From a virus, in IMG/VR virus record IMGVR_UViG_3300029309_000234, positions 1 to 29,687 of that record: a stretch of 29,687 bases of DNA. One strand, written 5' to 3'. Below are positions 3,779 through 29,687 of this stretch, in pieces. The position numbers were made by a program, and so were the translations under genes. Position 1 is the first letter of the stretch; each line of letters opens with the position of its first letter. The notes beneath the pieces were generated by a model. That model was not told where the DNA came from and did no database searches. It saw only the letters and a program-made list of their open reading frames with translations.

Positions 3779-5950
3779 TTAAAACATCGCAGTCTGCAAA
3801 CGCCCCTCAATAGCCGCGGCACAGTTCCTCTTTGCCACGTCGAAGTAACTGGGCTTTAGCTCAAACCCTAGCCCCTTCCTGTTCATCTGCAAAGACTGAA
3901 AAACCTCTGATCCGATGCCCATAAAGGGAGTAAAAACAACGTCCCCCGGATTAGAGTACAAGTGAACCAGTCGCTCGATTGTGTCTAGCTGCAAAGGGCA
4001 AATGTGCTTCTCGTCGCGATTATCGCGGGCGGTTGTGTATTGCAATGTTCGAGTTTGGTTGATGTCCATCCACACCGGACTAGCGTACTTCTGCCACAGG
4101 TCTACCGGTAGCTCGGTATTGGCGACTGGATTATCCCGCTCTCCGTCTTTGCGGAATACAAGCACATAGTCTGGTAGCCCCACAGCCGACATGGTAGAGT
4201 CTTTCTTGACCTGCTTATGTAACAATTCAATGGCCTTGGTGCGCTGCATCTGAATCACCGGGTCCTTCCAAATTGTCACGCGGGAATGATATATAAACCC
4301 ATGCTTCTCAAAAGCCTCTCGAATCATTCCGGAGAAGTCGCGAATGCCCCGAAAGCCCTCGACGCCCTTTTTAATCATCAAGTCCATGCAGTGAACGGCC
4401 ACGTTTCTACCGCTTTGCGTGACCCTATATAGGTGCTCCACCAAGTAGTCAAAGTGAACAAGGAACTCCTGCCAGTCGGCACTGTTGCCCATGTCTTCGG
4501 CGTAGTCGGAATATGTGTAAAGGTCAGCAAAGGGAGGAGAGAATACGGAAAGTCCCACGCTCTCGTCCGGTACACTGCGGATTAATTCAACGCAGTCCCC
4601 GCGTCTAATTGTGTAGTCGTCGGTCACGACCTCCTCGATGTTATAGGTCACATCCTCCACCGGTTCCTCGCAGTTGATGGTATTGGTCATGGCTTCGTTC
4701 ATAGTATCGAATTGGTCTTGTTTTCGGTTGATGGATTGGATGACGTTCTCCATCGTATCGGTGGAGACGATGTAGATGTTGACGTCTTTCTTTTGTCCGA
4801 AGCGATAGGAGCGCCGGATGGCCTGATACAACCCTTCAAAGCTGAAGTCTAGAGACGCAAATATCTGATTCGGGCAGTGCTGAAAGTTGAGGCCAAACTG
4901 GGCAATCTTGGTTTTAGTGACCAACACTCTAAACTTGCCCGCCTTGAATTCAAGGAAGGCGTTTTCTTTCTGCTCTGGGGTCTGACTACCGGATACCTCT
5001 ACGGCGTCCGGGATGAGGTCTAGGATGAACTTCGCCTCCTCATTCTGTTTGACCCAAACGATGAACGGCTCGTTTGATGCCTTAACGATTTCGGCGGCGG
5101 CTTCCATCCTTGGAACTTTGGTCAACCGCAGTTCGGCGTTAAAGTTTGTAGCACTCACCGCGACCTCATTGAATAGCATCCCGTGGTCCCGTTGGTCTGT
5201 CTCAATCTGCCGCTCGTGAAAGTGCAGCGGCGGCAGCTCATGGTCTGCGTCTTCATATCCAAGGTCTGACGGCTTGCGGATGACCGAAGCCCATGTTCCT
5301 ACCCACTTATAAAACGACTTCTCCGCGTGTCCTTTGAGTCTCCATTTTTGAGTGCTGGCCCCGTCATGGATAAAGTAGGTTGCGCTCATCTCGGTACGCG
5401 AGAGCACGTCGAGAAACTCCGAATGGTTGCCCAGCTCCAAGGGATCGTTAGGACTGGGAGTCGCAGTACAGGCCAGCTTGTAGGGTATGTCCCGGCAGCG
5501 GTCCAGAATCATCTGCTTCATCTTGCCCATGAAGTTCTTGAGGATTGAGGACTCGTCCAATACAACGCCACCAAACCCATCAAGGTCCACTTTGTGAAAA
5601 CTCTCGTAATTGGTGATAATGACGCTATTTGAGTATGCGCGGTTCTCCTCCCACGGGACGACATGGATGCCAAACTTCTCGCCCTCGGCCACTGTTTGAG
5701 CGGCAACCGCAAGAGGGCAAAGAATAAGGACGTTTTGCCCTATGGCCTTTGTGACCTGGTGCGCCCACTCTAACTGCATGAGGGTCTTGCCTAGTCCGCA
5801 GTCCGCGAAGATGGCATACCGCCCACGGCGGCAAGCCTTTTGTACTATCTCCCGCTGAAACGGGAACAGGTGACGGTTTAGGTTTTGCGGTTCAATTCCT
5901 ACGCTCTGAGAGGACTTGACCTTATTCTCTATGAATTGTTCGTACTTCAT
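3779..5950 (-). CDS. SF2 (SNF2-like) helicase fused to N4/N6 DNA methyltransferase
   Basis: The 723-aa protein has two enzymes in one chain. Residues 25-410 are an SF2 helicase: ADCGLGKT (Walker A, 49-56), LDESS (motif II, 131-135), TATP (162-165) and QAIRRSYRFGQ (motif VI, 376-386) as in SNF2-type translocases. Residues 445-715 are an amino-methyltransferase of beta order: SPPF (catalytic motif IV, 471-474), then ICPLQL (motif X) and FTPFMGIGSEVF (SAM-binding motif I, 673-684). No target-recognition or nuclease domain is obvious. It should bind DNA, use ATP and methylate adenine or cytosine. It is the last gene of a leftward operon and its ATG overlaps the previous stop (ATGA). Likely roles are protection from host restriction or marking phage DNA; there is no restriction partner nearby. 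It is also the only clear helicase in the genome, so a role in replication is possible. Confidence 0.92.
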   Translation of the reverse strand: MKYEQFIENKVKSSQSVGIEPQNLNRHLFPFQREIVQKACRRGRYAIFADCGLGKTLMQLEWAHQVTKAIGQNVLILCPLAVAAQTVAEGEKFGIHVVPWEENRAYSNSVIITNYESFHKVDLDGFGGVVLDESSILKNFMGKMKQMILDRCRDIPYKLACTATPSPNDPLELGNHSEFLDVLSRTEMSATYFIHDGASTQKWRLKGHAEKSFYKWVGTWASVIRKPSDLGYEDADHELPPLHFHERQIETDQRDHGMLFNEVAVSATNFNAELRLTKVPRMEAAAEIVKASNEPFIVWVKQNEEAKFILDLIPDAVEVSGSQTPEQKENAFLEFKAGKFRVLVTKTKIAQFGLNFQHCPNQIFASLDFSFEGLYQAIRRSYRFGQKKDVNIYIVSTDTMENVIQSINRKQDQFDTMNEAMTNTINCEEPVEDVTYNIEEVVTDDYTIRRGDCVELIRSVPDESVGLSVFSPPFADLYTYSDYAEDMGNSADWQEFLVHFDYLVEHLYRVTQSGRNVAVHCMDLMIKKGVEGFRGIRDFSGMIREAFEKHGFIYHSRVTIWKDPVIQMQRTKAIELLHKQVKKDSTMSAVGLPDYVLVFRKDGERDNPVANTELPVDLWQKYASPVWMDINQTRTLQYTTARDNRDEKHICPLQLDTIERLVHLYSNPGDVVFTPFMGIGSEVFQSLQMNRKGLGFELKPSYFDVAKRNCAAAIEGRLQTAMF

Positions 5951-6186
5951 TTGGTTCGTGTTTTATACCATGGCCTTTGCAACTCCGCCTCAAGACGAAG
6001 CCACGCGGCGGGGTTCCTGTTGCGTAGTTCCTCGCAGCACATCGAGTAAAGCCTTTCGGTATACTCTCCGCGGTCCTTCCTTGCTATAGGGCGAATCAAC
6101 CCAATCAGCTCATCCCACGTCATGCGGGTAATAGCAATCTGGAGGGAGTCTTCTGGTAGCTTCTGAAGTTCTTTCATCAGGTTCAT
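5947..6186 (-). CDS. Hypothetical small protein of the helicase-methyltransferase operon
   Basis: The frame opens at 6243, but the ATG at 6186 overlaps the stop of the upstream gene (ATGA) and gives a 79-aa product beginning MNLMKELQKLPEDSLQ. It is predicted helical, with a W-D-E-L segment, a basic middle, two Cys (SMCCEELRN) and a Trp-rich end. No family recognised. Its stop overlaps the start of the helicase-methyltransferase, so the two are probably made together; it could be a partner or regulator of the fusion enzyme, which is inference from position. Confidence 0.7.
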   Translation of the reverse strand: MNLMKELQKLPEDSLQIAITRMTWDELIGLIRPIARKDRGEYTERLYSMCCEELRNRNPAAWLRLEAELQRPWYKTRTK

Positions 6187-6380
6187 CGGGTTTCCTTCCA
6201 GTATTGAAACTCCCACTTCACTTCCTGCCGGGACAGTCGGCACCCGTCGGCTATGGCTTCGAGGAATACCTTCGAGCCGCTGCGGAGCTGACTGTCAAAC
6301 TGTTGGCGCGTAATGGCCAGAGCCTTACACAGGGCCTCAATGCTACCGTATTGGGAGCGAATCATATCGTAGAAGTCCAT
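6183..6380 (-). CDS. Small helix-turn-helix-like protein
   Basis: A 65-aa product, start ATG overlapping the previous TGA. Residues 12-55 read like a compact XRE/Cro-type fold: SIEALCKALAITRQQFDSQL is a plausible helix-turn-helix, followed by helices ending in LSRQEV. It may be a DNA-binding regulator made from the leftward operon, opposing the 77-aa HTH protein of the rightward operon. The helix-turn-helix call rests on pattern only. Confidence 0.6.
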   Translation of the reverse strand: MDFYDMIRSQYGSIEALCKALAITRQQFDSQLRSGSKVFLEAIADGCRLSRQEVKWEFQYWKETR

Positions 6381-6640
6381 CAGATGTAAGAGCTAGAGTT
6401 AGAGCCATTGCGCCCGGTGTGGAGGGTGCATTCCTTTTCCTCTTCGAGGGAGCAGATATGGCCGGGAGATTGCCATGGGCTATCGGGGTACATGACAAAC
6501 CCATCCCCGACGTGATACTGCATGGTAAACCCAGCGTATCCGGTGCCCTCTATGAGGGAGATATCGCGGGGGTGGGTGCCCTTCTTCCAATGGTACTTGA
6601 TGGCCTGCCACCCGGAGTACGTTTCGCCGTTGTACATCAT
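6380..6640 (-). CDS. Hypothetical protein
   Basis: An 86-aa product beginning MMYNGETYSGWQAIKYHW, with start and stop each overlapping the neighbouring genes in the leftward operon. It is rich in Gly, Tyr and aromatic residues (GYAGFTMQYHVGDGFVMYPD), which suggests a small beta-rich fold. The C-terminus is Cys- and Ser-rich. The family is not recognised. The opposite strand has a similarly long open frame (6419-6670), but the overlap pattern on the minus strand favours this one. Confidence 0.6.
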   Translation of the reverse strand: MMYNGETYSGWQAIKYHWKKGTHPRDISLIEGTGYAGFTMQYHVGDGFVMYPDSPWQSPGHICSLEEEKECTLHTGRNGSNSSSYI

Positions 6641-6885
6641 AGCGAGACGAGTTCCTTGTGGATGGAGTAGAGGCTGCGGCGCTGTGCGTTGAGGCTGTGC
6701 ATCACCTTATCGTCTTCGGCGTAGATGCTTTGGCCCTGATTGCGCATCTTCTCCAGTTCGTCCCAACGCTCCATAATCTTGTTCTCTAGGTTGTCGATGT
6801 GGGCGCTTACGAGGCGCATGGCGTCGCGGATAGCCTCTGACCGTCCGATGTCGTGGTTCGCTTTTTCGATTTGTGTGAAGTCCAT
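6637..6885 (-). CDS. Hypothetical coiled-coil protein, first gene of leftward operon
   Basis: An 82-aa, highly charged, helical protein with heptad-like spacing (DNLENKIMERWDELEKMRNQ) and no membrane segment. It is the first gene of the leftward operon; its ATG lies 18 nt from a good Bacteroidota -7 box (TAGATTTG). It is probably an early product. No family recognised. Confidence 0.7.
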   Translation of the reverse strand: MDFTQIEKANHDIGRSEAIRDAMRLVSAHIDNLENKIMERWDELEKMRNQGQSIYAEDDKVMHSLNAQRRSLYSIHKELVSL

Positions 6886-6903
6886 TCGTGTGTTTGTTTG
6901 CTA

Positions 6904-6935
6904 CAAATCTACACACAATTTGCATTGCTGCAAAA
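6904..6935 (-). promoter_or_regulatory. Leftward promoter of the helicase-methyltransferase operon
   Basis: Read on the minus strand: TTTTG (6935-6931), a 19-bp spacer and TAGATTTG (6911-6904), an exact match to the Bacteroidota -7 consensus TAnnTTTG. It gives a short leader of about 15 nt before the ATG at 6885. The -33 element is one half of the palindrome at 6918-6935. Confidence 0.72.
6918..6935. promoter_or_regulatory. Palindromic putative operator between divergent promoters
   Basis: ATTTGCA-ttgc-TGCAAAA, an inverted repeat with 6 of 7 pairs matched. It overlaps the -33 element of the leftward promoter with one half and that of the rightward promoter with the other. The same palindrome with the same 4-bp spacer recurs at 10293-10310. 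A small HTH protein bound here could control both directions. Confidence 0.6.
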
Positions 6936-6951
6936 TGTAATTGTATCTTCA
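6919..6951 (+). promoter_or_regulatory. Rightward promoter of the replication operon
   Basis: TTTG (6919-6922), a 21-bp spacer and TATCTTCA (6944-6951), a weaker match to TAnnTTTG. An A-rich leader of about 20 nt (caaaacatcaaacc) precedes the ATG at 6972, as is usual for Bacteroidota, which rely on A-rich leaders more than Shine-Dalgarno pairing. Confidence 0.55.
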
Positions 6952-6971: not shown

Positions 6972-7205
6972 ATGACAAAATTTAGACAGTGGTTCGCAGA
7001 CGTGAACCGTGCAATCGTTGCACAGATGGCCGTTCAAAAGGTCACTCAGAAGGACCTGGCCGACCACCTTGGCGTCCACGCGGCCACAATGAACCGCAAG
7101 CTCCAAGACCCCGGCCTTTTTACGGCGGGAGAATTTGGTGCCGTGTGTGAGCGCCTCAACATTGACCTCAACAACCCCAAGAGCTATGGTGCAGGCGCAA
7201 GTTGA
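6972..7205 (+). CDS. XRE-like helix-turn-helix regulator
   Basis: The frame opens at 6888, but the promoter boxes lie inside that extension, so the ATG at 6972 (after an A-rich leader) is the likely start. It gives a 77-aa protein with a clear helix-turn-helix: VTQKDLADHLGVHAATMNRK at residues 21-40, then LFTAGEFGAVCERLNID. It is the first gene of the rightward operon and faces the leftward operon, the layout of a phage switch or an autoregulator. It is the best candidate to bind the palindrome at 6918 and 10293. No integrase is present, so it more likely times early expression than maintains lysogeny. Confidence 0.8.
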   Translation: MTKFRQWFADVNRAIVAQMAVQKVTQKDLADHLGVHAATMNRKLQDPGLFTAGEFGAVCERLNIDLNNPKSYGAGAS

Positions 7206-9064: not shown

Positions 9065-9459
9065 CACGAAAGAAGCTAATTCAAAAGCTAGATAGGGTTT
9101 TTTCGCAGTACGTGCGGCAAAGGTGCGCAGACCATAGAGGGATAGTCGAGTGCTACACTTGCGGGAGACAATCACATTGGAAGACAGTAGACGCTGGACA
9201 CTTTCAGAGCCGCGGAAAGTTTTCGACGCGGTGGCTTTGCGACCCGGAGGAGGGGTTGGTGAACGTCGCCCCGCAGTGCAAGAGGTGCAACGGATTCCGA
9301 TCGGGTGAACAATTCAAATTCGCCCGCCGCCTCGACGCCGACTTCGGGGAGGGCACAGCTGAGAAAATTGAGCAGATGAGTAACCAGACGCGGAAGTATT
9401 CCGTAGAGGAACTCGAGACGTTGATAGAAGTCTACAACCGCAAGCTCCGCAAATTGTGA
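9043..9459 (+). CDS. ninG: NinG/Rap-like recombination protein
   Basis: The 138-aa protein matches the lambda NinG (Rap) pattern. It has a basic N-terminal helix, a zinc site with CYTC (37-40) and CKRC (79-82), the segment VDAGHFQSRG with His53, and NVAPQCKRCNGFRSGEQF. In lambda the family is a structure-specific nuclease for Holliday junctions and D-loops. Here it should process recombination intermediates during replication or concatemer formation. Its stop is shared with the GTG start of the next gene. Confidence 0.9.
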   Translation: MPRSSRVTRKKLIQKLDRVFSQYVRQRCADHRGIVECYTCGRQSHWKTVDAGHFQSRGKFSTRWLCDPEEGLVNVAPQCKRCNGFRSGEQFKFARRLDADFGEGTAEKIEQMSNQTRKYSVEELETLIEVYNRKLRKL

Positions 9460-9992
9460 CGCTGAACCGATACCTCGAACGGAACTACACCGACCTATTG
9501 CAAGCCGCCGAAAGGATAGCCGGCAAGGATGGGCCGGACCTGCTCCACGAGGTTATCCTACAGCTATACCAAACCAAAGCCGAAACCCTCGACGGGCTAC
9601 TCGAAAGGGGGCAGATGAAGTACTGGGCCTTGAGGGTGATGGTCAACAACTACAACTCCAAGACTTCCCGATACCATTACAAGTGGAGGAAGGACATAGA
9701 GCGCCGGCGGAAGTTCTCCCGACAGATTCGGGACTGGTGGGATGGGGACGGGGTAGCTGCCCACCGTGACGAACTCCTTACCCATATCGAGACCCAACTG
9801 GCCGACCTCCCGTGGTTCGATGCGGAGGTCTTTGCCATATATTTCGAAGAGGGGCACACGCTGGATTCATTTGCTGAGGCCACGGGTATCTCTCGTCACA
9901 CACTATACACCACCATCAGACGTGTCAGAAAAAGAATCCAAGGGACTGGGCGACAAAATCGCGAAGCTCACCAAAGCAACGGGGATAGATAA
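9456..9992 (+). CDS. Sigma-70-like transcription factor
   Basis: A GTG start overlaps the previous stop (gtga). The 178-aa product has a region-2-like segment near residues 25-70 (GKDGPDLLHEVILQLYQ, then MKYWALRVMVNNYNSKTS), a basic stretch (YKWRKDIERRRKFSRQ), and a region-4-like helix-turn-helix at about 132-164 (GHTLDSFAEATGISRHTLYT then TIRRVRKRI). This is the layout of short, ECF-like sigma factors found in Bacteroidota phages. It may direct host polymerase to late genes; several structural genes lack a consensus host promoter. Confidence 0.8.
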   Translation: MTLNRYLERNYTDLLQAAERIAGKDGPDLLHEVILQLYQTKAETLDGLLERGQMKYWALRVMVNNYNSKTSRYHYKWRKDIERRRKFSRQIRDWWDGDGVAAHRDELLTHIETQLADLPWFDAEVFAIYFEEGHTLDSFAEATGISRHTLYTTIRRVRKRIQGTGRQNREAHQSNGDR

Positions 9993-10278
9993 GCTGGTCC
10001 ATGCCGTAGTAGAAGACTGCGGATGTGAGGACAGGCAGAAGAAACTCAATGAGATGTTTCCGGGGCGCAACGTGAAGATGAGCGAGAGAGACGCCGAGAT
10101 GTGGAAGCGGATGCAAATCTCCGTAAAGGGTGGACGCCTCAACCGCTCCGATGGAGCCGTCATGTATCAAATCTATAACCGGACCTTCAACGCTGCGGCC
10201 AAGCCTTGCAATTGCTCAGGCAAGAACGCGGACATGGTCAAGAAACTCCAGCGTGCCTATGAGCTAAGGTGCGAATAA
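9922..10278 (+). CDS. Cysteine-containing hypothetical protein
   Basis: The frame is open from 9766, but the part before 9922 is out-of-frame reading of the sigma-like gene. A GTG at 9922 gives a 118-aa protein starting MSEKESKGLGDKIAKLTKAT, overlapping the sigma-like gene by 71 bp. It has a Cys motif (DCGCEDR) near residue 32, a second one (CNCSGK) near residue 99, and between them a basic R-x-D-A-E-M-W-K-R stretch. The two CxC pairs could bind zinc. I associate it with a phage family of unknown function. It is the last gene before the promoter at 10294. Confidence 0.75.
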   Translation: MSEKESKGLGDKIAKLTKATGIDKLVHAVVEDCGCEDRQKKLNEMFPGRNVKMSERDAEMWKRMQISVKGGRLNRSDGAVMYQIYNRTFNAAAKPCNCSGKNADMVKKLQRAYELRCE

Positions 10279-10292
10279 AAAAAGCGCCAAGT

Positions 10293-10310
10293 ATTTGCAT
10301 AATTGCAAAA
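10293..10310. promoter_or_regulatory. Second copy of the palindromic putative operator
   Basis: ATTTGCA-taat-TGCAAAA: both arms are identical to the copy at 6918-6935, with the same spacer length and different spacer bases. It covers the -33 element of the promoter at 10294-10326. Confidence 0.6.
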
Positions 10311-10326
10311 GACGACCGTATATTTG
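10294..10326 (+). promoter_or_regulatory. Bacteroidota-type promoter, probably leaderless
   Basis: TTTG (10294-10297), a 21-bp spacer and TATATTTG (10319-10326), a full match to TAnnTTTG. The ATG of the next gene begins at 10331, only 4 nt beyond the -7 box, so the transcript probably begins at or very near the start codon. Confidence 0.78.
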
Positions 10327-10330
10327 GCAC

Positions 10331-10600
10331 ATGAACAACGCACAAAACATCCAGAAAGCTCAAGGCATCCTCAACCAGCATGGGGTTCAGGTATTGACAG
10401 AGATTGGTATCTCCCTTGCGAATACCGTGCAGGAAATGAAGGACAACATGGGCAACTTCAAGCCGGGCAGCAAACAAAGAAAAGAGCAGTGGAAGGAGCT
10501 TCATGCCGCAGTCCAGATGCTTCAGGCCTGCAAGCACGTCCTTGGCGACAAGGTGATTTTGACTCGCCCATACATTTCCTCAGAAGTGGCTCGGACGTGA
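10331..10600 (+). CDS. Hypothetical helical protein, first gene of middle operon
   Basis: The frame opens at 10295, but that part lies in the promoter; the ATG at 10331 gives an 89-aa protein, MNNAQNIQKAQGILNQHG onward. It is predicted almost wholly helical, with no membrane segment or known motif (residues 40-60 are K/Q-rich: FKPGSKQRKEQWKEL). Its position as first gene behind a strong, probably leaderless promoter suggests high early expression. Function unknown. Confidence 0.72.
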   Translation: MNNAQNIQKAQGILNQHGVQVLTEIGISLANTVQEMKDNMGNFKPGSKQRKEQWKELHAAVQMLQACKHVLGDKVILTRPYISSEVART

Positions 10601-11178
10601 ACCTTGGCCGCTTCGATTGCTCGACCGGAATCATTAAAGTCCTGTATCGTGACCCGGTGCGGGACTTAGTGGTTCGGACCAGCACGATACAAGACCAGCT
10701 TCTCGTGGACAAACTGCAAAAAGAGAACGCTCATGCAGTCGGATTTATACAGGACACCATCTGGAAGGATTACGTCTGGGGAGGCAAAAGAAATTTTGTC
10801 GTCCTCATCTGTGAGGTCAACGCCGACGCGGTAGGATATGTGCTAATAACGCCCGCGAGGGGGACGTATAGGTATGCCAAGATTCAACAGATAGCCGTTC
10901 GCAATGACGCCCGACGGCTACAATATGGACAGGCTCTGGTTTCTGTGTGTCGAGATTTCTGCGAGGAGTTTGGACGCCTCGGATTCACCTTGCGTTGCCG
11001 GACAGATTTAGAGTCCAATCACTTTTGGAGGTCTTTGGGCTTTACGCATTACGACACATGGCAGAAGGGGCGCATCAACCATGTAGGATTTAAGGCGTCC
11101 AACGACATCAACCTATGGAAGATAGAATTGAACCGCCGCCTTCCCACTCTATTTCAATTTGATGAAGCACGGATTTAA
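10597..11178 (+). CDS. GNAT-like acetyltransferase
   Basis: The GTG at 10597 overlaps the previous stop; the frame upstream of it is a shadow. The 193-aa product has the GNAT order: strand VVLICEVNADAVGYVLI (about 67-83), the central strand KIQQIAVRNDARRLQYGQAL with the R-x-x-x-x-G-like acetyl-CoA loop weakened to R-R-L-Q-Y-G (about 97-116), helix VSVCRDFCEEFGRLG, and the C-terminal ESNHFWRSLGFTHYDT (about 134-149). It may acetylate a host protein or small molecule; GNAT genes sit as accessories in many phages. The substrate is unknown. Confidence 0.8.
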   Translation: MNLGRFDCSTGIIKVLYRDPVRDLVVRTSTIQDQLLVDKLQKENAHAVGFIQDTIWKDYVWGGKRNFVVLICEVNADAVGYVLITPARGTYRYAKIQQIAVRNDARRLQYGQALVSVCRDFCEEFGRLGFTLRCRTDLESNHFWRSLGFTHYDTWQKGRINHVGFKASNDINLWKIELNRRLPTLFQFDEARI

Positions 11179-14247: not shown

Positions 14248-14278
14248 TTTGGCGTATTGATTTATTCCCCTATCTTTG
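14248..14278 (+). promoter_or_regulatory. Bacteroidota-type promoter of a mini transcription unit, probably leaderless
   Basis: TTTG (14248-14251), a 19-bp spacer and TATCTTTG (14271-14278), a full match to TAnnTTTG. The start codon at 14283 is 4 nt past the box, exactly as at 10326/10331. No palindrome is present here, unlike the early promoters. Confidence 0.75.
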
Positions 14279-14282
14279 AGGT

Positions 14283-14471
14283 ATGTACTACGAACAAAAC
14301 ACCACCGCTCAACAGCTCTACACCGGAGACGTTTTTATCTGCCTGACTAGCGGCAAGCAATACACGTTCGACGGGATTGATGGAGTGGACTTGTGGGTGA
14401 CCGACGAGAATGGCAGCACATTCGCTATTGACCCCACAGAATCCGTTCAGCATATCGCGTGTAATATCTAA
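14283..14471 (+). CDS. Small beta-rich hypothetical protein, possible accessory (moron-like) gene
   Basis: A 62-aa product, MYYEQNTTAQQLYTGDVFIC onward, with alternating hydrophobic pattern (YTFDGIDGVDLWVTDENGST) that suggests a small SH3-like or beta-barrel fold. It has its own promoter, whose -7 box ends 4 nt before the ATG, and lies with a 25-aa membrane peptide in a unit closed by a strong terminator. This independent expression between terminase and tail genes is the hallmark of a moron. Function unknown. Confidence 0.7.
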   Translation: MYYEQNTTAQQLYTGDVFICLTSGKQYTFDGIDGVDLWVTDENGSTFAIDPTESVQHIACNI

Positions 14472-28621: not shown

Positions 28622-29687
28622 CTTCGCTAACCTGACCTCGTCCATTACGGTCGGCAGCGCGTCAGAGTTACAATTCACCGGAAAGAATAACACCGGCTCC
28701 ACCATCTCCAAAGGAAAGGCCGTCTATATCTCCGGGGCTGTGGGCAACGACACGACTATTGCCCTAGCTGATAACGCCTCGGCCTCTACTATGGCCGCCT
28801 TCGGAATCGTAAAGGCAGACATCGCCAACGGAGATTCTGGTATCGTGGTCATGTCCGGCAGCGTTTCGTCCATCAACACCGCGGCATTCTCTGAGGGCGA
28901 CGAGCTATACGTTAGCACCTCCGGCGACTTGACTACAACCAAGCCCACCGGGACGGCACTCATACAGAAGATTGCCAAGGTAGCCAAGGCCGCCGCCTCC
29001 GGTTCGATTGTAGTGGCCGGCGCAGGGCGCACCAACGATATCCCCAACATCGCACAAAACTACATCTGGAAGGGCAACGCCTCCGGGGTGCCTGTAGCGG
29101 TAGAGAACAAATTCACCGAGCTAACCGATACCCCCGCTTCCTTGGGTAGTGCGGGGCAGGTCGTCAGCGTCAACTCCGGCGGTACGGCTTTGGAGTTTAC
29201 GACGGTGGCGGGTACGGGAACGGTGACCTCTGTCGATGTAGCCGGCGGGACGGGCCTTACTTCTTCCGGTGGTCCGGTCACGGGATCGGGAACCATTACG
29301 GTCAACCTTGACGATACCGCTGTAAGTGCCGGGTCATACACCAACGCGAGTGTAACGGTAGACGCCCAAGGACGCCTTACGGCGGCCAGTAGTGGCACCG
29401 CAGGCATCGCCAACGTAGTCGAGGACACTTCGCCCCAATTGGGTGGAAATTTGGACGTCCAAGCGCGGGAGATAGACACCTCCACCACAAACGGGAATAT
29501 CATCCTCACCCCCAACGGGACCGGATTCGTAGAGGTCAAGGGCAACACCAACCCCGGCGCGGTGCGTTTGAACTGCGAAAGCAACTCACACGGGGTAACC
29601 ATCAAAGGCCCGGCGCACTCCGCAGGGGCTACATACACCCTCACCCTACCTGATGACGACGGCGCCGCGAACTCGGTTCTCAAGTCG
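28518..29687 (+). CDS. Tail fibre / fibre-like structural protein, N-terminal part (continues at base 1)
   Basis: The ATG at 28518 opens a frame that runs off the window end and joins in phase to 1-615 across the repeat. The N-terminal part starts MANSKISELTELTSADSADV, a virion-attachment style start seen in many phage fibres. It continues with KAVYISGAVGNDTTIALADN and FGIVKADIANGDSGIVVMSG (a small beta domain), then GTGTVTSVDVAGGTGLTSSG, VSAGSYTNASVTVDAQGRLT and DTSPQLGGNLDVQAREIDT, all common fibre shaft blocks, and NGNIILTPNGTGFVEVKG. These phrases occur in many unrelated phages, and fibre assembly is the safest reading. It is expressed with the connector operon. Confidence 0.85.
   Translation, partial: MANSKISELTELTSADSADVLAIVDASASETKKISFANLTSSITVGSASELQFTGKNNTGSTISKGKAVYISGAVGNDTTIALADNASASTMAAFGIVKADIANGDSGIVVMSGSVSSINTAAFSEGDELYVSTSGDLTTTKPTGTALIQKIAKVAKAAASGSIVVAGAGRTNDIPNIAQNYIWKGNASGVPVAVENKFTELTDTPASLGSAGQVVSVNSGGTALEFTTVAGTGTVTSVDVAGGTGLTSSGGPVTGSGTITVNLDDTAVSAGSYTNASVTVDAQGRLTAASSGTAGIANVVEDTSPQLGGNLDVQAREIDTSTTNGNIILTPNGTGFVEVKGNTNPGAVRLNCESNSHGVTIKGPAHSAGATYTLTLPDDDGAANSVLKS
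29589..29686. repeat. Right copy of 98-bp terminal direct repeat
   Basis: Identical to 1-98. The last base of the window (29687, g) differs from base 99 (c); this is a third-codon position and both codons are serine, so the difference is silent. Either the assembly kept one stray variant base at its end or the sampled phages vary there. Confidence 0.95.

Follow-up and report, generated by a model that had tools for sequence, protein, structure and literature searches.

What function can be assigned to an inverted repeat that lies between two divergent promoters of an uncultured phage and recurs, exactly, over a third promoter farther along? The window analysed here is the whole stretch of 29,687 bases of a virus genome, and its promoters are of the Bacteroidota type (TTTG / TAnnTTTG). 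Positions 1-99 and 29589-29687 form a terminal direct repeat that is identical at 98 of 99 bases (one mismatch) and joins the first and last open reading frames; since the ends repeat over these 99 bases, this is probably a complete genome, assembled as a circle. It has no DNA match to named phages, and its terminase is at most about 40% identical to theirs, the best matches being Phocaeicola phages. The host search found no relatives of the terminase or of the regulator XRE77 in genome contigs. Relatives were gathered by terminase and XRE77 searches, which gave more than 100 loci, some of them overlapping, and 28 relatives of XRE77 in viral contigs. As far as searched, no description was found of an early-gene operator for this Bacteroidota-type phage family, which lacks a close named relative. 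The comparisons below suggest that the repeat probably serves as operator for a Cro-like autorepressor that the phage encodes, most likely XRE77, which would occlude both early promoters as well as the accessory promoters that carry the operator.

The preliminary description had reported ATTTGCA-N4-TGCAAAA at two places (Table 1) and had taken its halves for the -33 elements of the leftward and rightward promoters. Both 18-mers are exact. A first-order Markov model predicts 8.8e-5 copies of this sequence in the genome and 1.4e-3 copies of the form with 6-base arms, and two are found in each case; with three mismatches allowed there are eight matches against 1.7 +/- 1.3 in shuffles. The promoter parts in the sequence agree with the role given to the halves: the rightward promoter has its -33 in the TTTG of the left arm (6919-6922), at a spacing of 21 bases, and the leftward promoter has its own in the CAAA of the right arm (6931-6934), at a spacing of 19 bases. 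Because the rightward -33 opens the left arm and the leftward one closes the right arm, the two promoters interlock in the layout CAAAnnTA-N9-TTTGCA-N4-TGCAAA-N9-TAnnTTTG. The rightward -7 box TATCTTCA has four of six consensus bases, most relatives having TATCTTTG, and the leftward one is kept as CAAANNTA in 22 distinct relatives. Both promoters have the parts of a Bacteroidota primary-sigma promoter (TTTG at -33, TAnnTTTG at -7, spacing of about 19-21), the consensus being that of PMC6847099. If transcription starts 4-5 nt beyond the -7 box (PMC6847099), the starts would lie near 6899 (leftward) and 6956 (rightward), an estimated 56-59 bp apart, with the operator centre about 28-30 bp upstream of each (-28 to -30). 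A reading of the repeat as an RNA hairpin or terminator was rejected, since it precedes both start sites and is not followed by a T-run.

Table 1. Positions of the regulatory elements and genes discussed, in the coordinates of the window.
Feature	Position	Strand	Basis or remark
HTH65, 65-aa HTH-like protein, alternative ligand; third gene of leftward operon	6183..6380	-	conserved synteny with XRE gene
82-aa protein without assigned function; first gene of leftward operon	6637..6885	-	
-7 box of leftward early promoter, CAAATCTA (TAGATTTG on minus strand)	6904..6911	-	sequence
Candidate core operator, ATTTGCA-TTGC-TGCAAAA	6918..6935	none	exact match; arms are the interlocked -33 boxes of both promoters
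-7 box of rightward early promoter, TATCTTCA	6944..6951	+	sequence, alignment of upstream regions
XRE77, 77-aa XRE/Cro-type regulator, proposed ligand; first gene of rightward operon	6972..7205	+	family and fold matches
Candidate satellite operator, ATTTGCA-TAAT-TGCAAAA	10293..10310	none	exact match; left arm supplies the third promoter's -33
-7 box of third promoter, TATATTTG	10319..10326	+	sequence
89-aa ORF (MNNAQN...), first gene of accessory cassette	10331..10600	+	
GNAT acetyltransferase, accessory gene behind satellite operator	10588..11178	+	PF00583, E 9e-9; in 3/54 genomes
Class II promoter, TTTGGCG-...-TATCTTTG	14248..14278	+	19-base spacing, no operator; negative comparison

In relatives the repeat occupies the same place, between the divergent early promoters and upstream of XRE77. 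The comparison set comprised 25 distinct upstream sequences and 22 distinct XRE77 proteins. Each of the 25 upstream regions agrees with the arms at 9 or more of the 12 positions, and in 10 of them the agreement is complete. Across the set of 22, the arms and both -7 boxes hardly vary; the stretch between the operator and each -7 box is largely free to do so. The 4-base spacer between the arms occurs 25 times in 625 kb of family loci (the copies of this genome included), and the same arms with spacers of 0-3 or 5-10 bases are absent from the same 625 kb. The bidirectional 50-bp pattern CAAANNTA-N9-TTTG-N8-CAAA-N9-TANNTTTG is present in 20 stretches among all viral contigs, 19 of which belong to the XRE77 phage family. 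Within the family, one subgroup (L153-L162) has the inner bases of one arm altered, TGCAAA becoming [TA]CCAAA, and retains the -33 core TTTG/CAAA; therefore, part of the conservation of the core site reflects promoter function. In two near-complete relatives (28.6 and 27.7 kb), a site was absent even with one mismatch allowed.

This conservation within the family is the evidence for the repeat; the collection-wide count does not separate signal from background. Among viral contigs the spacer-5 control pattern is as common as the spacer-4 pattern (57 stretches against 56), and these counts were dropped as evidence. The spacer-5 stretches are mostly within long ORFs and never on both strands; a reversed-arm control gave 5 across the collection, a number that is low partly because the reversed arms contain CpG. 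L008, a match of 42% over 37 aa, was also dropped, a comparable upstream site being absent. Contigs of the L093 type matched the pattern and were set aside as an unrelated family with TTTGCAA repeats. In this unrelated phage group (L093, L094, L096, L110, L118, L129), repeated TTTGCAA motifs (ACTTTGCAACTTTGCAAAAACATGCTATAGCTTTGCAAAG) stand upstream of a protease-like gene. Two further unrelated viral contigs (L117:449, L127:4040) have similar repeat-plus-promoter sites beside different HTH genes.

At 10293 the repeat covers the -33 of a third promoter, as had been proposed. No leftward -7 was found at this site, which has a rightward promoter only; its start is predicted to fall on the A of the ATG (10331), which would make the transcript leaderless (TSS spacing from PMC6847099). 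The surroundings were surveyed in 54 genomes, the present one included, that have both flanking genes (the 100-aa gene at 9976-10278 and the 246-aa gene). No gap separates the two genes in 46 of them, and the satellite operator is absent where there is no insertion. The operator-promoter is present in all three genomes with GNAT (the present genome, L237 and L250) and was not found in the five that have another insert between the flanking genes. The third site is an add-on gained with the insertion, not part of the core. The earlier idea that one regulator acts on all early operons stands to the extent that the divergent and third promoters share a site that is kept in relatives; it does not stand for the third promoter as a core early operon, the promoter and repeat having arrived with the inserted GNAT gene.

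Promoters chosen only by TTG, spacing and a TAnnTTTG-like -7 form two classes in the family. Class I promoters have a spacing of mostly 20-21 and retain both arms, and they include accessory promoters without a leftward partner (10294 in the present genome, L015, L034, L037, L113, L052 and L246). Class II promoters begin with TTTGG, have a spacing of mostly 19 and lack the second arm. The promoter at 14248 was correctly described as lacking the repeat; since it belongs to this repeat-free class, which is found across the family, its unit lies outside the shared site, in line with the separate control suggested for it. Class I modules occur before a Mom-like gene between terS and terL (L015-L017, L034), before a small ORF and/or a C5 methyltransferase after the 246-aa gene (L246, L064), in a TTGTA variant after the same gene (L030, L055, L071, L075, L082) and, after the 170-aa gene, before a small ORF (L052). 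Several of the genes behind them are DNA-modifying (Mom-like, C5 methyltransferase) or GNAT, and the same Mom and C5 methyltransferase genes are also found elsewhere without the operator. The satellite promoters may share ancestry and are therefore not fully independent. We tentatively raise the possibility that the operator-promoter is a plug-in module, by which incoming accessory genes at several insertion points would join the early regulon, others escaping through the operator-free class II.

Could the repeat do without a regulator, if it is no more than the -33 boxes of two back-to-back promoters interlocked as TTTG-N8-CAAA, so that polymerase bound in one direction excludes the other? 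The arms do coincide with -33 boxes at the core site, overlapping footprints would yield mutual exclusion regardless, and the L153-L162 subgroup retains TTTG/CAAA and loses the inner TG of one arm. However, the inner CA and TG of the arms lie outside the -33 consensus, yet they are kept in 16-20 of 22 relatives, and the -33 element itself shows weak conservation in F. johnsoniae (PMC6847099). The two promoter classes point the same way: one-way accessory promoters keep both arms although just one is a -33 and the other serves no promoter there, and class II promoters, in these phages too, have TTTGG and lack the second arm. The -33 box alone, which the preliminary description had considered as the possible source of the similarity, is not enough to explain it, and we regard the regulator-free account as unlikely.

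A regulator that recognises the repeat could come from the host, the phage borrowing it, and the similar promoter repeats near other HTH genes in some unrelated viral contigs (L117, L127) would fit such a factor. The site nevertheless closely tracks the XRE77 family, and the sole host motif compared, that of the Bacteroidetes SOS boxes (CTAA-N5-TTAG and GGA-N5-TCC; PMC8565304), is a different one. A host factor appears very improbable. Within the phage there are two candidates. XRE77 matches the transcriptional repressors of PHROG 4583 (E 1.8e-7), its Pfam matches being below curated cut-offs. Its AlphaFold model (pLDDT 82.8) has helix-turn-helix helices at 26-33 and 37-45, and its Foldseek neighbours are C.BclI (top), 434 Cro, P22 c2 and HipB, with probabilities up to 1.00 and none below E 0.1. 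The predicted five-helix fold with its helix-turn-helix is that of Cro/C1-type (XRE) regulators, a prediction of fair confidence; the Foldseek E values are about 0.1 and above. HTH65 is as conserved as XRE77, being syntenic in almost every XRE77 locus that has enough sequence, and two regulators in opposite operons around a single operator make up a classic switch layout; HTH65 might thus be the ligand itself or compete with XRE77 for the site as CI and Cro do. On the other hand, it is the third gene of its operon and has weak family matches only, whereas XRE77 adjoins the site and scores as a repressor, and a part for HTH65 at the operator seems doubtful. Proximity and family score favour XRE77 as the most likely ligand without proving it, the choice staying short of proof because HTH65 is equally conserved.

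With XRE77 as the autorepressor, a dimer would bind the two-fold symmetric site of 16-18 bp, over and between the -33 boxes, and would keep host RNA polymerase from the two divergent early promoters simultaneously. We infer repression rather than activation, and also the timing that the word early implies. The core operator would govern the genes from 6885 to 3779 leftward and from 6972 onward rightward. Accessory genes inserted farther along the rightward operon can bring the same operator-promoter and would be turned down simultaneously, the GNAT cassette at 10293 being the putative case in the present genome.

The arrangement found here, a two-fold symmetric operator that adjoins the gene of a small one-domain helix-turn-helix protein and overlaps divergent promoters, is that of the Cro-type switches of lambda, 434 and PY54, and the predicted fold of XRE77 neighbours 434 Cro and P22 c2. 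PY54 has a single 16-bp palindrome as its Cro operator (PMC4488713); the Cro of that phage is thought to repress cI and not itself, unlike the autorepression proposed here. Unlike the known Cro cases, the operator arms here are the -33 boxes themselves, and there is one operator rather than the three of lambda-type systems, plus satellites at accessory genes. No S24-type (CI-like) repressor or integrase was found among about 30 proteins scanned of the probably complete genome; therefore, a lysogeny repressor is a poorer fit than a lytic autoregulator, and membership among lambda-type lysis/lysogeny switches (CI/S24 repressor with integrase or plasmid maintenance) is not claimed. The system is most likely a familiar kind of phage switch in an unusually compact, symmetric form.

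Restriction-modification controller (C) proteins have a similar small XRE fold, as the top match to C.BclI indicates, and a palindromic site over a promoter, but no cognate restriction enzyme gene was recognised beside XRE77. C proteins usually activate as well as repress. The bidirectional promoters of E. coli share a -10 region, whereas here the -33 boxes interlock and the starts are an estimated 56-59 bp apart. Those promoters are alike in having a pseudo-symmetric sequence at which one bound polymerase excludes the other (PMC12825309). The stoperators of cluster A mycobacteriophages (PMC6550527) likewise repeat a single operator away from the main switch; they occupy many intergenic places, whereas a genome of the present family has at most one extra copy, at the promoter of an inserted accessory gene.

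The locus offers a compact, testable candidate regulator-operator pair built into Bacteroidota promoters, and possibly a tool part for hosts in which E. coli promoters fail. The relatives form a natural series of accessory genes entering or escaping the phage regulon.

Some further observations concern the promoters and their genes. At many accessory promoters (10319-10333, 14271-14285 and many relatives) the ATG is exactly 4 nt past the -7 box, as it is at the leftward early promoter in relatives; leaderless mRNAs are therefore predicted, whereas the mRNAs of most F. johnsoniae genes are not leaderless (PMC6847099). Unrelated accessory ORFs share the start ATGAACAACGCACAAAACA (MNNAQN), at 10331 here and at L016:3714, L009:8982, L024:10485 and others, as if promoter and first codons travelled jointly as a cassette. 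Class II promoters at accessory-gene slots (14248-14278 here; after terL and after the 170-aa gene in relatives) have a conserved TTTGTTTGGTG and 19-base spacing, possibly a control element of their own. A palindrome just after terL (L004, L026, L028, L029, L038, L039, L077) was left out of the operators, since the stop region of terL (CTT GCA TAA) makes up one half and there is no -7 at promoter distance. The sequence TTGCATAAATGCAAAC spans the terL stop codon, with a class II promoter downstream, in five relatives (L004:7697, L026:1195, L028:6012, L029:3638, L038:3862). In the leftward operon, a helicase is fused to an N6/N4 DNA methyltransferase in one protein of 723 aa (3779-5950). Elsewhere, a 178-aa sigma-factor-like protein (9456-9992; PHROG 1740, E 3e-10), highly conserved in relatives, is a possible late-gene activator.
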